The position numbers and the translations under genes are program-made. 64,000 bases of DNA from assembly GCF_007860185.1 (NCBI RefSeq), contig NZ_SJPY01000002.1, forward strand, positions 465,775 to 529,774, read 5' to 3'. A model generated the notes under the pieces. The model was not told the DNA's origin, ran no database searches, and worked only from the letters and a program-made list of their open reading frames with translations. Below, in pieces: positions 6,288-41,942 of this stretch. Position 1 is the stretch's first letter. Each line of letters starts with the position of its first letter. Origin of the DNA: Novipirellula aureliae (GTDB lineage: Bacteria; Planctomycetota; Planctomycetia; Pirellulales; Pirellulaceae).

Positions 6288-6310
6288 GAGTCTTGGAGAG
6301 ACTCGGCTAC
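6288..6310. repeat. Single copy of the dispersed GAGTCTC palindrome
   Basis: GAGTCTTGGAGAGACTC followed by GGCTAC. The same 23 bases, with one change, close the large repeat array at 24718-24740, and near-identical copies occur in inverted orientation at 41584-41650. The arms pair to form a 7-bp stem with a GGA-type loop. Confidence 0.7.
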
Positions 6311-20563: not shown

Positions 20564-20668
20564 TAGCCCGGATGATTCATGGGCTTGCAAATTGTTTTGC
20601 AAACGTCTACGCCTTCAAGCGTTTACGTTCATTGCTCGAAAAACAGTCTGCGTATTAGCCGTTTTGGC
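20564..20668. mobile_element. Second, rearranged copy of the 677-802 element
   Basis: TAGCCCGGATGATTCATGGG begins here and the sequence follows the copy at 679 with only a few differences as far as CAGTCTGC (20653). There the two copies part. This copy continues with ATTAGCCGTTTTGGCG (20654-20669), the reverse complement of the sequence in the same place in the first copy, so the right end is inverted, and it runs straight into the 122-bp units. Confidence 0.6.
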
Positions 20669-21034
20669 GTTAGCGGGCTGTCGATTTAATCGTTTAACGC
20701 TTAGCCGAAGGCGTCAGCTTTTCCATAAGCGGTCGCCTATGGCTTGGCGTTAAACGATAAGTCGAGTCAAACCGATTAAATCGACAGCCCGTTAGCGGCC
20801 TGCTGATTTAATCGTTTAACGCTTAGCCGAAGGCGTCAGCTTTTCCATAAGCGGTCGCCTACGGCTTGGCGTTAAACGATAAGTCGAGTCAAACCGATTA
20901 AATCGACAGCCCGTTAGCGGCCTGCTGATTTAATCGTTTAACGCTTAGCCGAAGGCGTCAGCTTTTCCATAAGCGGTCGCCTACGGCTTGTCGTTAAACA
21001 ATAAGTCGAGTCAAACCGATTAAATCGACAGCCC
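20669..21034. repeat. Three tandem 122-bp units, each a nested hairpin
   Basis: Units begin at 20669, 20791 and 20913 and are nearly identical. Each reads GATTTAATCG then GTTTAACGC on the left and ends GCGTTAAACGATAAG then CGATTAAATC on the right, so both the outer and inner blocks pair with their mirror images. Between them are GCCGAAGGCG and CGCCTAYGGC. The regular 122-bp period with very low divergence points to recent duplication. No coding capacity is visible. Confidence 0.85.
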
Positions 21035-23171: not shown

Positions 23172-23218
23172 GCATAAGCACCTTTCCAGCAATTTATGGA
23201 CGGGGTAAACTACGTCCC

Positions 23219-24037
23219 ATGATGAATAAACAACTTTTTGAACTGAACGATGATGTCGCGGTTGTCATTGGTGGAACCGGCGAACTAGGTGGGATGATGG
23301 CAGAGGCTTTGGGCACGTTTGGGGCCAAAGTAGCCGTCGTGGGCCGAAATGCGGAGCGTGGCGAAGCACGGGCAATGCGGATCACGGACGCGGGTGGCGA
23401 GGCAAAGTTTTTCGCGGCCGATGGCCTCGATTCTGACTCCTTGGCCGTGATGCGTGATGCGGTAAAAGCATGGGCTGGATCGCCAACCACAATCCTGGTC
23501 AATGCGGCGGGCGGTAATCGCCCTGAGGCGACCATTCCGCCTGGAGGAGATTTTTGCAAGTTGCCTGTTGATGCGTGGCGAGACGTTTTTGATCTGAATC
23601 TCGTTGGCGGGGCACTTTTGCCGTGCCAAGTGTTTGCACCCGATATGATCGACGCAGGTGTCGGCAGTATTATCAACATCGCTTCGATGTCAGGAATGAT
23701 CCCACTGTCACGAGTCGTCGCTTATTCCGCTGCCAAGGCGGCCGTGATTAACTTGACACTTTGGCTCTCACGTGAATGGGCGACGACCGGTGTCCGGGTC
23801 AACGCCATCAGCCCCGGTTTTTTCCCAGCGGAACAGAACCGAAAACTTCTATTGAATGATGATGGCAGTTATACCGAGCGAGGGGGACAAATTATCGGGC
23901 ATACGCCGATGGCCCGTTTTGGGAAAGCAGAGGAATTAGCGGGTGCCGTTGTCTGGTTAGCCAATCGCAATGCATCTTCGTTTGTAACAGGCCAAAATAT
24001 AGCAATCGATGGCGGATTCGCGTCCGTTACGATTTAA
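23219..24037 (+). CDS. SDR family NAD(P)-dependent oxidoreductase, probable hexuronate-pathway reductase
   Basis: 272 residues. Rossmann glycine motif GGTGELGG at 18-25, NAAGG at 95-99, and the catalytic pair Y169/K173 in YSAAK with a serine near 156-158. The end GQNIAIDGGF is typical of classical SDRs. Length is normal. Family relatives reduce fructuronate or related sugar acids; with the KDG-kinase-like gene next along in the same direction a role in hexuronate or mannonate catabolism is likely but is an inference from context. Starts at the first ATG of an ATGATG pair. The 743-base gap to the next gene is filled by the palindromic repeat array. Confidence 0.82.
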   Translation: MMNKQLFELNDDVAVVIGGTGELGGMMAEALGTFGAKVAVVGRNAERGEARAMRITDAGGEAKFFAADGLDSDSLAVMRDAVKAWAGSPTTILVNAAGGNRPEATIPPGGDFCKLPVDAWRDVFDLNLVGGALLPCQVFAPDMIDAGVGSIINIASMSGMIPLSRVVAYSAAKAAVINLTLWLSREWATTGVRVNAISPGFFPAEQNRKLLLNDDGSYTERGGQIIGHTPMARFGKAEELAGAVVWLANRNASSFVTGQNIAIDGGFASVTI

Positions 24038-24040
24038 CCC

Positions 24041-24740
24041 GTAGCAGCGTATCGCCGAGACGCTAACTCGTAGCAGCGTATCGCCGAGACGCTAAACCGT
24101 AGCAGCGTATCTCCGAGACGCTAAACCGTAGCAGCGTATCGCCGAGACGCTAAACCGTAGCAGCGTCTCGCCGAGACGCTAAACCGTAGCAGCGTATCGC
24201 CGAGACGCTAAACCGTAGCAGCGTCTCGCCGAGACGCTAACTCGTAGCAGCGTATCGCCGAGACGCTAAACCGTAGCAGCGTATCGCCGAGACGCTAAAC
24301 CATAGCAGCGTCTCGCCGAGACGCTAAACCATAGCAGCGTATCGCCGAGACGCCAAACCGTAGCAGCGTCTCGCCGAGACGCTAAACCGTAGCAGCGTAT
24401 CGCCGAGACGCTAACTCGTAGCAGCGTATCGCCGAGACGCCAAACCGTAGCAGCGTCTCGCCGAGACGCTAAACCGTAGCAGCGTCTCGCCGAGACGCTA
24501 AACCGTAGCAGCGTATCGCCGAGACGCCAAACCGTAGCAGCGTAGCAGCGTATCTCCGAGACGCTAAACCGTAGCAGCGTATCGCCGAGACGCCAAACCG
24601 TAGCAGCGTATCTCCGAGACGCTAAACCGTAGCAGCGTATCGCCGAGACGCTAACTCGTAGCAGCGTATCGCCGAGACGCTAACTCGTAGCAGCGTATCG
24701 CCGAGACGCTGTTTTCCGAGTCTCGGAGAGACTCGGCTAC
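24041..24740. repeat. Array of 23 tandem 29-bp palindromic repeats
   Basis: Twenty-three units of GTAGCAGCGT(A/C)TCGCCGAGACGC followed by TAAACC, TAACTC or CAAACC fill 24041-24710. The core AGCGTCTC-GCC-GAGACGCT is a perfect 8-bp stem with a 3-base loop; the common variant, with A in place of C in the left arm, has one mismatch. A few units read CTCCG instead of CGCCG. One unit (24538-24545) has an 8-bp partial duplication of GTAGCAGC. The array ends in a related palindrome, GAGTCTCGGAGAGACTC with GGCTAC (24718-24740). It is not a CRISPR array: the units are contiguous and there are no unique spacers. Confidence 0.95.
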
Positions 24741-24781
24741 TATGAACATCATCTAACCAACACAGACAAGGAACTTTACTG

Positions 24782-25870
24782 ATGGCAGCCATTTCGATTC
24801 CCGCGGCGAACGCCGATCTCGATTTTCTTTCTCTCGGGGCACTCGTTCACCGGCTCGATCCAGGTGTAACTCCATTTCGTACCGCAACCTCTTTCGACAT
24901 TCACGTTTCGGGTGGTGAGTACAATTGTGCGGCCAACTTGGCATCCTGCTTCGGGTTGAAAACGGGCATTGCATCCGCGATGGTTAACAACGGAATCGGC
25001 GAATTGATAAGTCGTCAAGTTCGTGCGATGGGCGTCAAACCGTTCTACAAACAATTCAAACATGATGGTGTTCGCGGCCCAAATATGGCAACCGTTTATA
25101 GTGATCGCGGCCAAGGCGTTCGTCCTCCGGTCGTATTCTATAACCGAGCCAACGAGGCTGGCGCGATGTTAAAGCCGGGCGACTTTGATTGGAAAGAAAT
25201 TTTTGCTGGAGGATGCCGGTGGTTTCATAGCGGTGGTATTTTTGCCGCTTTGTCGGAAACCACTGCGGAAGTGGTGATCGAAGGACTCAAAGCGGCTGGT
25301 GAAGCGGGTGCGATTCGATCCTTCGATTTGAACTATCGTGCCAAGCTATGGGATTCGATCGGTGGACTCGAGCAAGGTCAGAAAATGATCGCTGAAATCG
25401 CCAAACATGTTGACCTGCTTGTCGGCAATGAAGAGGATTTGCAAATGGGACTTGGGGTCAAGGGGCCAGATGTTGAGAAGAAGGACACTAGCAAACTCGA
25501 TCCACAAAACTTCTTCAAAATGATCGATGAAGCGGTTGAAAAGTTCCCGAACATCAAAGCGGTTGCGACCACATTGCGAGAAGTCCACAGCACCAATCGT
25601 CACTCGTGGTCCGCCGTCCTTTGGCACGACGGCCAACAATACGTTGCACCGACCGCTGAATTGGATGTGATCGATCGCATCGGCGGCGGTGATGGATTTG
25701 CATCGGGTTTGATTTACGGATTGCTCGATGGACGATCCTCCGAGGAAAGCCTGAAGCTCGGTTGGGCACATGGTGCGTTACTGACCACGTTCCCTGGCGA
25801 TGTGTCGCGTGCCACGCTGAGTGAAGTCGAGGCATTCGCTAAAGGCGGCAGTGCGAGGGTTCAGCGTTAG
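24782..25870 (+). CDS. PfkB-family sugar kinase, probable 2-keto-3-deoxygluconate kinase
   Basis: 362 residues. PfkB (ribokinase) fold: an N-terminal substrate region with HVSGGEYNCAANLASCFG (about 40-57), and the catalytic anion-hole motif RIGGGDGFASG at about 299-309, whose aspartate is the base. Relatives with this layout phosphorylate 2-keto-3-deoxygluconate, the product of hexuronate dehydration. The upstream SDR reductase in the same direction supports that pathway, but no KDPG aldolase or dehydratase lies in the window. ATG at 24782 with AAGGA 8 nt upstream. The length is slightly above the usual 310-340, because of a loop around 225-240 (GVKGPDVEKKDTS). Confidence 0.85.
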   Translation: MAAISIPAANADLDFLSLGALVHRLDPGVTPFRTATSFDIHVSGGEYNCAANLASCFGLKTGIASAMVNNGIGELISRQVRAMGVKPFYKQFKHDGVRGPNMATVYSDRGQGVRPPVVFYNRANEAGAMLKPGDFDWKEIFAGGCRWFHSGGIFAALSETTAEVVIEGLKAAGEAGAIRSFDLNYRAKLWDSIGGLEQGQKMIAEIAKHVDLLVGNEEDLQMGLGVKGPDVEKKDTSKLDPQNFFKMIDEAVEKFPNIKAVATTLREVHSTNRHSWSAVLWHDGQQYVAPTAELDVIDRIGGGDGFASGLIYGLLDGRSSEESLKLGWAHGALLTTFPGDVSRATLSEVEAFAKGGSARVQR

Positions 25871-39537: not shown

Positions 39538-41583
39538 ATGAACCACTTGGCTGATTCATTAAGCCCCTACCTACTCCAGCATAAAAATAATCCTGTCGAG
39601 TGGTATCCCTGGGGCAACGCGGCTTTCGAGAAAGCTCGGGAAACCGACCGACCGATCTTTTTGTCGGTCGGCTACGCAGCTTGTCACTGGTGCCATGTGA
39701 TGGAGCACGAAAGCTTTGAGAACGAGTCGATCGCGAAGTATCTCAACGAGCATTTCATTTCGATAAAAGTCGATCGCGAAGAACGTCCCGATATCGATCA
39801 GATCTACATGAATGCGGTCCAACTGATGACGGGCCGTGGCGGGTGGCCGATGAGTGTCTTTTTAGATCACCAAATGCGACCGTTTTATGCTGGAACGTAC
39901 TGGCCACCGACTCAGCGAAGTGGGATGCCTGGCTTTGTCGATGTCATTAGTGCACTGGCGGAGGCGTGGAAGAATCGCCGCAGTGATGTCGAAGAGCATT
40001 CCGCAAAGATTACCGAATCGCTTCAAGTGTTAGCACTCGGGACCGAGATGGAACCAGAGTCGATTGCCGATGAAGCGGTGATCACCAACTCCACCTCTCG
40101 TCTGCTGCAAGTTCTCGATCGTCAAGATGGCGGATTCGGCGCAGCCCCGAAATTCCCACACGCAACCGACATCAATCTACTGCTCACGCGCGCCGTCACG
40201 ACGGGTGAGAAAGAACTTGCCGATGCCGCGGAATTGACGCTCGACAGAATGGCGGGCGGCGGAATCCGAGACCATATCGGGGGCGGCTTCGCGCGCTACA
40301 GCGTTGACAGCAAATGGCTGGTTCCTCACTTCGAAAAAATGCTCTATGACAATGCACTGCTGGCCGTTCAATACGTCAGAGCTTTCCAGGTAACCGGAAA
40401 CAGACGCCATGCCGATGTCGCCTGCGAGATTCTCGATTATCTCGACCGCGAAATGACGGATCCGGCTGGTGGGTTTCACTGTAGCGAAGACGCCGATAGC
40501 GAAGGGGTCGAAGGCAAGTACTATGTCTGGACGCCAGATGAGGTGAAGAAGATCCTCGGAGAGGAAGCAGGCGAACGGTTTTGTAAGGTCTACGACATTT
40601 CCGAAGAAGGAAATTTCGAAGGTAACAATATCGCCAACTTACCGCGCTCGTTCGAAAGCTATGCAGAAGAATTCGCGATGCCCGATCTGGATATTCAGTT
40701 GGCGAGAAATCGCGAGAAGCTTCGTATCGAGCGTGACAAACGAGTGCATCCGGGGCGAGACGACAAGATTCTGACGGCCTGGAACTCTCTGGCAATCTCC
40801 GCGTTCGCAGTCGCTGGCGGCGTTCTCGATCGGCCTGATTATATTGAAATTGCAACGCGGGCTACAAAGTTCACCTTCGATCAAATGGTCACGGACGACG
40901 GTAATTTGTTGCACGCATTTCGTCAAGGTAAATCGCACCTTGCCGCGTTTTTGGATGATTACGCATTCACAATCGAGGCGCTCGTGTCGCTCTTCGAAGC
41001 GAACGGGCAAGCTCGATACATCGATCGGGCGGTTCAGTTGGCCGATACAATGATCAAACGATTCAAAGACGAAGAGCTGGGCGGCTTTTTCTATACGTCC
41101 AACGATTCCGAAACGCTAATCACACGGACGAAGGATTGGCACGATGGTAGCCTGGTGAGCGGCAATGCCTCCGCAGTGATGGCACTGCTGAAATTGTCTC
41201 GACTGTGCAATCGAGAAGATTATCGAATTGCCGCAGAGCAGACGCTGAGACTAGCGAACGATATTTTGCAAACTCAATCGGCTGCCTGCGCGGCCCTGGT
41301 AGTGGCCCTCGATCGCTACCGAAACGATGCAGAGCAAATCGTGGTGGCCGTTCCTGACCAAGAAGCGATGAAAAACGTTCGAGCGGATCTTTTAAAGAAC
41401 TTCCATCCGCATGCGACACTCTCCTGGGTGATTGGCGATGCGTTTGATTCAGAACCAGTCGTGGCATTGAATGAGGATCGCAGCGTGATCGATGCGGCTC
41501 CGACGGTGTACCGCTGCAAGCATTTCACCTGCGACGCGCCTGTGACCGGCAAAGCGGCCATACAATGGCTCGGAGAGTTCTAA
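39538..41583 (+). CDS. Thioredoxin-domain protein of the DUF255/YyaL (SPATA20-like) family
   Basis: 681 residues, the usual length. Thioredoxin fold at 1-170 with the redox motif C49-H-W-C52 inside SVGYAACHWCHVMEHESF and a cis-proline-region DREERPDIDQIYM. The C-terminal two thirds form an alpha/alpha barrel like those of the N-acylglucosamine 2-epimerase family (GGIRDHIGGGFARYSVD, HPGRDDKILTAWN, ALIVALDRY). No activity is firmly established for the family; a role in thiol or sugar metabolism has been proposed. Single gene, flanked by repeats, without an evident operon partner. Starts at ATG 39538 with the family-typical NHLADSLSPYLLQHKNNPVEW. Confidence 0.92.
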   Translation: MNHLADSLSPYLLQHKNNPVEWYPWGNAAFEKARETDRPIFLSVGYAACHWCHVMEHESFENESIAKYLNEHFISIKVDREERPDIDQIYMNAVQLMTGRGGWPMSVFLDHQMRPFYAGTYWPPTQRSGMPGFVDVISALAEAWKNRRSDVEEHSAKITESLQVLALGTEMEPESIADEAVITNSTSRLLQVLDRQDGGFGAAPKFPHATDINLLLTRAVTTGEKELADAAELTLDRMAGGGIRDHIGGGFARYSVDSKWLVPHFEKMLYDNALLAVQYVRAFQVTGNRRHADVACEILDYLDREMTDPAGGFHCSEDADSEGVEGKYYVWTPDEVKKILGEEAGERFCKVYDISEEGNFEGNNIANLPRSFESYAEEFAMPDLDIQLARNREKLRIERDKRVHPGRDDKILTAWNSLAISAFAVAGGVLDRPDYIEIATRATKFTFDQMVTDDGNLLHAFRQGKSHLAAFLDDYAFTIEALVSLFEANGQARYIDRAVQLADTMIKRFKDEELGGFFYTSNDSETLITRTKDWHDGSLVSGNASAVMALLKLSRLCNREDYRIAAEQTLRLANDILQTQSAACAALVVALDRYRNDAEQIVVAVPDQEAMKNVRADLLKNFHPHATLSWVIGDAFDSEPVVALNEDRSVIDAAPTVYRCKHFTCDAPVTGKAAIQWLGEF

Positions 41584-41781
41584 GTAGGCGAGTCTCTCCG
41601 AGACTCGCACCCCTCAGCGTCTAAGTAGGCGAGTCTCTCCGAGACTCGCACCCCTCAGCGTCTTGTGCGGTTCAGCGTCTTGTGTGGTTCAGCGTCTTGT
41701 GTGATTCAGCGTCTTGTGCGGTTCAGCGTCTTGTGCGGTTCAGCGTCTTGTGCGGTTCAGCGTCTCGGAGAGACGCTGCTA
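41584..41781. repeat. Compound repeat: two 41-bp units, six 17-bp units and an inverted copy of the 29-bp array core
   Basis: Two copies of a 41-bp unit start at 41584 and 41625, each with the palindrome GCGAGTCTCTCCGAGACTCGC. Six 17-bp units of CAGCGTCTTGTG(C/T)GGTT follow (41656-41757, starts every 17 bases). The last CAGCGTCT continues into CGGAGAGACGCTGCTAC (41759-41781). That segment is the reverse complement of the 29-bp array unit at 24041, in its CTCCG form. The two tracts are therefore the same family in opposite orientations. Confidence 0.85.
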
Positions 41782-41942
41782 CTGCGCCTCGGTGAAACGG
41801 CTTGTTTTGCCGAGGTTTATTTTTGAACGTCAGATTGTCGATGTACCTAAAAACATTCTTTTTGCTCTGCGATCCCTGAATAACCTTCCTTGCTGTACTT
41901 GGGATTGATGAATCCACCCAGGGATTCTTCGGTGGAGCCACG
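41782..41942. other. Short gap before the RRM terminator
   Basis: About 160 bases with no gene or repeat that I can support. Part of the 455-base intergenic stretch between the DUF255 gene and the RRM gene, otherwise filled by the repeat tract and the terminator. Confidence 0.4.

Follow-up and report, generated by a model that had tools for sequence, protein, structure and literature searches.

The Locus and Its Repeat Array

The window, which comprises the whole stretch of 64,000 nucleotides of Novipirellula aureliae DNA analysed here, carries an SDR oxidoreductase gene and a PfkB-family sugar kinase gene separated by 744 bp (24038–24781), one base more than the 743 given in a preliminary description of the region. 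The reductase matches the NCBIfam model for D-mannonate oxidoreductase, NF006132, with 339 bits (cut-off 281), and the best similarities of the kinase are to 2-keto-3-deoxygluconate kinases, with scores below the cut-off. Most near relatives carry the two genes side by side, close together and in the same orientation, and co-expression is probable, as had been suggested. The gap between them contains a large repeat array, which is summarised in Table 1 alongside further members of its repeat family that occur in the window.

Table 1. Genes and repeat elements of the window.
Feature	Positions	Strand	Basis or remark
SDR oxidoreductase, D-mannonate oxidoreductase subfamily; TAA stop at 24035–24037	23207–24037	+	Pfam adh_short_C2; NF006132
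23 GTAG-tagged REP units, GTAGCAGCGT[A/C]TC[G/T]CCGAGACGCT plus 5-bp spacer	24041–24710	+	29-bp period
37-bp unit with internal 8-bp duplication (slippage-type footprint)	24533–24569	+	unit-by-unit split
GTTTT spacer between last forward REP and inverted REP; putative interior of founding REP doublet	24711–24715	+	
REP in inverted orientation that caps the array at its 3' side; the minus strand reads GTAGCCGAGTCTCTCCGAGACTCGG	24716–24740	-	unit-by-unit split
Sugar kinase of the PfkB family, most similar to 2-keto-3-deoxygluconate kinases	24782–25870	+	
Solitary REP, same family as array	6290–6310	-	
Second REP cluster, same family: two tandem REPs (41-bp period), 17-bp tandem repeat, inverted REP at 41762	41584–41782		

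The presence of 23 head-to-tail units with a 29-bp period, as first reported, was confirmed both by Tandem Repeats Finder (score 1098) and by splitting the sequence unit by unit. The unit consists of a tag, GTAG in 21 cases and ATAG in two, followed by a GTCTC-NCC-GAGAC hairpin, and the tags start at 24041 for the first forward unit and at 24687 for the last, which ends at 24710. The step between units is 29 bp throughout, with a single exception of 37 bp. Moreover, the span of 24041–24740 originally allotted to the 23 units includes at its 3' end an inverted unit which was overlooked; it differs from the forward units and has the stem CCGAGTCTC.

An 8-bp stem was earlier ascribed to every unit but can form perfectly in only six of the 23, because in the other 17 a C to A change in the left arm produces an A.G mismatch that weakens the predicted RNA hairpin from -11.9 to -5.5 kcal/mol. 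The alternating sub-types that had been perceived show no ordered pattern or periodicity when unit-shifts of 1 to 12 are tested (lowest p 0.17); while tandem amplification stands, the unit order lends no support to unequal exchange between such sub-types. The array was rejected as a CRISPR locus, as it had been before, because its 5-bp spacers are variants of one sequence and are not unique. Rfam searches yielded matches far below the gathering scores only, mostly to miRNA models to which any inverted repeat would conform, and these are taken as chance. A promoter scan found none, and a terminator scan gave two minus-strand terminator-like matches where 1.1 were expected.

A Dispersed Family of Elements

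The core of the unit, written as the pattern GTAGCNNNGTCTCNCCGAGAC with at most one mismatch, has 635 matches in the 7.27-Mb genome, which sets a minimum for the copy number, and the reversed pattern has none genome-wide, so that chance is excluded as the source of the repeat family. Cluster statistics were derived from 1.83 Mb (C1:1–1,200,000, and C2:1–630,000 less 226 bases) and supplemented by genome-wide pattern counts. Those 1.83 Mb hold 302 units in 49 clusters of 1 to 26 units each, and 44 of the clusters lie outside the ORFs predicted by a simple gene model. Neighbouring REPs are arranged head to tail in 229 pairs and inverted with GTAG outward in 24, with no inverted pair having GTAG inward, and consequently every inverted unit sits 3' in its array. 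The search pattern fixes the loop and the upper stem. The three basal stem positions covary: counted per cluster, complementary bases stand opposite each other in 210 of 219 cases against 125 ± 6 after shuffling, the common pairs being CGA/TCG, CGC/GCG, AGC/GCT, GGC/GCC and TCC/GGA. Among 36 clusters in tandem or convergent, that is non-divergent, intergenic gaps of the same 1.83 Mb, 22 lie between 10 nt before and 15 nt after a stop codon, and the position of the window array, +3 nt from the reductase stop, is typical of the family in this genome.

Single copies, doublets and arrays of two to more than 20 units coexist in the genome. The window array is one of dozens of REP arrays genome-wide and not, as originally portrayed, a local feature of one gene pair with dedicated functions. 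Elsewhere, entire REP doublets are repeated in tandem with periods of 73 bp (G000:C5:154051–154587) and 66 bp (C1:1544283–1544669), and the second REP cluster of the window (41579–41782) merges into a 17-bp repeat, TCAGCGTCTTGTGCGGT, present in 6.5 copies, with an inverted REP last. The window also contains three tandem copies of a 122-bp palindromic MITE-like repeat (20668–21034); C2:1–630,000 has over 15 additional copies that are at least 90% identical, and another tandem run, with a period of about 81 bp, lies at C2:263878–264319.

The distribution of the family bears on two alternative explanations of the array. The idea of a minisatellite that has no connection with mobile DNA and expanded from local sequence purely through slippage would suit both the unit with an internal 8-bp duplication and the evidence for growth in situ that is given below, but it is refuted by a core common to hundreds of dispersed copies, many of them solitary or in doublets, and we find it scarcely credible. 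In E. coli, REPs are gyrase and IHF sites and this, together with the regular spacing, could suggest that the units serve as repeated binding sites of a chromosomal protein, whether gyrase, IHF or a regulator of hexuronate genes. We consider this very improbable, given that individual arrays have periods anywhere between 29 and 75 bp, that arrays occur at many unrelated places and that two congeners lack the family altogether.

The Site in Related Genomes

A search of related genomes for the unit, which the preliminary description had advocated, detected the repeat core in 42 of 199 genomes of the taxonomic family, with up to 220 matches per genome outside the present one and none in two congeners. 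The array is absent from the orthologous spacer in relatives. In the nearest relative, the congener Planctomycetes bacterium CA13, the intergenic gap measures 64 bp as against 744 bp here. Between the final codon of the reductase and the start of the kinase there are 68 bp in that relative, 58–257 bp in the other close relatives that retain the pair and 748 bp here, and no REPs were found at the orthologous gene-pair locus in any of these relatives. The array is accordingly an insertion in this lineage.

The tandem arrangement is itself peculiar to the lineage. Strict tandem REP pairs number 198 in this genome versus a total of 15 in 13 other genomes holding the REP core, whereas strict inverted doublets number 59 here and 52 in the other 13, which marks tandem expansion as a trait of this lineage.

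Relation to Known REP Systems

The elements belong to the type of the GTAG-tagged REP super-family (Di Nocera et al. 2013, PMC3733652), and that paper lists the planctomycete R. baltica among the genomes with such REPs. The present family shares with it a short palindrome with an unpaired GTAG at one foot, a high dispersed copy number, complementary stem changes and extragenic siting near the 3' ends of genes; according to the same paper, GTAG REPs of other bacteria likewise sit near stop codons. It differs in the very high share of tandem copies in the present genome. Clusters of tandem REPs with flanking DNA have been described earlier (PMC3733652, PMC3116915), and the latter paper ascribes such clusters to a second mechanism.

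The replicative unit of REPINs is an inverted REP doublet (Bertels and Rainey 2011, PMC3116915), and the array shares this architecture, with GTAG outward as in all the inverted pairs and strict doublets counted above. Here, however, one REP of the doublet has been amplified up to more than 20 times and its partner stays single. A closely comparable element is the S. maltophilia REP of an experimentally tested REPtron (PMC8266576), whose perfect 8-bp palindrome and 3-nt loop correspond to the layout of the consensus unit here, except that most array units carry the stem mismatch and an extra C lies between GTAG and the AGC-type stem. When a mismatch is placed in the middle of this perfect 8-bp stem in the Stenotrophomonas system, cleavage is affected or almost eliminated (PMC8266576), and most of the array units are therefore probably no longer mobile.

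Taken together, the array is very probably a cluster of GTAG-tagged REP elements that arose by lineage-specific expansion of a known kind of mobile DNA.

A Candidate Cognate Transposase

The preliminary description also passed over a gene that is associated with the family. A search with NF047646 identified an ORF of 221 aa at C7:203787–204452 that encodes the HUH motif PNHAH together with FWQ and RRYIAENP. Eleven REPs lie 5' of it (nine forward, two inverted) and six 3' (three forward, three inverted), the nearest ending within tens of bp of the gene. In its motifs, its flanking REPs and the position of its TAG stop inside the GTAG of the downstream REP it resembles the RAYT/TnpA_REP genes of REPtrons (PMC8266576, PMC6006769). 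It is a divergent member, with some 100 additional residues ahead of the segment to which the model aligns, and scores 54.7 bits against the curated NCBIfam REP_Tyr_transpos cut-off of 80, which no protein of this genome passes. The best match among solved structures is E. coli TnpA_REP, 4ER8, with the same motifs aligned; the match is weak for the sequence alone (E 0.13) and reaches 0.003 with a profile.

Comparison with homologues extends this association. REPs of the same core flank the gene and its four closest homologues (57, 55, 51 and 50% identity), which come from four other genera, on either side, and all five belong to a clade of six members supported at 97/95; for homologue L260 only downstream REPs are visible, its contig starting 95 bases before the gene. 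The remaining 25 of 30 loci, at 48% identity or less, lack flanking same-core REPs. We consider C7:203787–204452 the probable cognate transposase of the family, with GTAG...GTCTCTCCGAGAC as its predicted target hairpin. Thirteen PF01797 proteins of the same genome were rejected for this role, none being encoded within 6 kb of a REP.

One of the five, the close homologue L263 (G099), pairs with same-core REPs at 422–2229 that are tagged GTGG and not GTAG, and it offers a natural test of tag recognition. Five further Y1/RAYT-like genes or fragments, similar to one another, occur at G000:C8:49976–70639 and C7:98917 (L091–L094 and L098), four of them within 21 kb; none adjoins this REP family, and a target repeat of their own was not found. 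There are also at least eight copies of a 356-aa frame with a weak match to the REP transposase model (G000:C4:570201, C7:355876, C7:357317, C25:793 and others), which probably constitute another family of single-strand transposases.

Proposed Founding Doublet and Growth of the Array

Forward units that end in a single inverted one fit the multiplication of one REP of a REPIN-type doublet, because inverted partners always carry GTAG outward. The founder implied for the window is GTAG...GACGCT-GTTTT-CCGAG...CTAC, of 54 bp, and a solitary doublet of the same left (AGC) and right (CGA) types is present at C6:541209–541263; each of the two has a strong fold in single-stranded form (z about -5). 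The exact form of the founder's stem can no longer be read, pairing having been lost in most units.

The units also contain flanking sequence. The 29-bp period corresponds to five flank bases plus a 24-base REP, and the window flank, TTTAACCC|GTAG, compared with CTAAACC|GTAG or CTAACTC|GTAG in the units, fits duplication in situ. Across 26 arrays with 18 periods, unit ends resemble their own 5' flank in 3.0 of 6 letters as against 2.1 after permutation, and spacer starts resemble the sequence 3' of the last unit with 4.3 as against 2.4 (p<0.0002 for each), which implies that local flanking DNA was duplicated in situ together with the REP.

We propose that a REPIN-type doublet of about 54 bp, with inverted REPs and GTAG outward, was inserted 3 bp after the reductase stop, probably mobilised by the cognate REP-associated tyrosine transposase (RAYT) of the genome. 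The left REP with 5 bp of its 5' flank (AACCC) was then duplicated in place to 23 copies, leaving the inverted REP unchanged, probably through replication slippage or recombination at the hairpins and not through transposition. The comparison covers one strain of the species, and transposition and changes in copy number are deduced from its sequence and those of relatives.

Alternatively, the transposase itself may have built the array unit by unit, through repeated cleavage and strand transfer at the CT dinucleotides beside REPs, where TnpA_REP is known to cleave (PMC8266576). The units in the window do diverge from the founder straight after GACGCT, but few of the other arrays in the list of 26 diverge after CT when inspected by eye, so that a CT-cleavage signature at the junctions is not general. 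Periods also differ among arrays, tandem pairs are scarce in genomes that hold related RAYTs and REPs, and the mid-stem mismatch, which impairs cleavage in the Stenotrophomonas system, is present in most of the units, and on this evidence we think such an origin unlikely.

A loss of SbcCD or MutS was considered as the cause of the amplification and rejected: MutS is present, as in relatives, and so is an SbcD-like gene, which scores below the family cut-off as it does in most relatives. No cause of the tandem expansion was found among such losses. We give little credence to a more elaborate scheme, whereby some process in this lineage, maybe involving its RAYT or a change in how replication forks deal with hairpins, selectively multiplies one REP of a REPIN into long polar arrays, with some stop-adjacent arrays being kept as adjustable 3' RNA elements.

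Possible Consequences for the Gene Pair

The array could also be regarded as a selected RNA element whose transcribed hairpins between reductase and kinase stabilise the upstream message, stall ribosomes at the stop codon or uncouple the kinase. It starts 3 nt after the stop codon, and PMC12306157, in a passage citing earlier work, states that ribosomes of E. coli stall where a REP lies no more than 15 nt from a stop; moreover, both genes are on the same strand and a read-through transcript would include the hairpins. Nevertheless, 17 of the 23 units carry the mismatch that weakens the stem, relatives use the same gene pair without the array, and REP clusters next to tandem genes show no uniform orientation, 10 running in the direction of the genes and 7 against it, with 5 balanced. 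Selection for such a role is, in our view, quite improbable. For an expanded mobile element, effects on mRNA may arise as side effects, since in E. coli hairpins a few nucleotides past a stop can alter how translation terminates and how stable the mRNA is. Provided that the array is transcribed, it may plausibly influence termination of the reductase and expression of the kinase.

Implications

Each anatomical feature of the array was known before from GTAG REPs, REPINs and REPtrons. What is added here is the founder architecture, the test for flank capture, a probable cognate transposase for the family and the lineage-specific excess of tandem copies. What appeared to be a gene-specific regulatory array becomes a clear case of mobile-DNA expansion, and a planctomycete REP family is paired with its probable transposase across five genera. 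The genome thereby provides a good natural system for studying the origin of tandem REP clusters, which the REPIN literature left open as the product of "a second mechanism".
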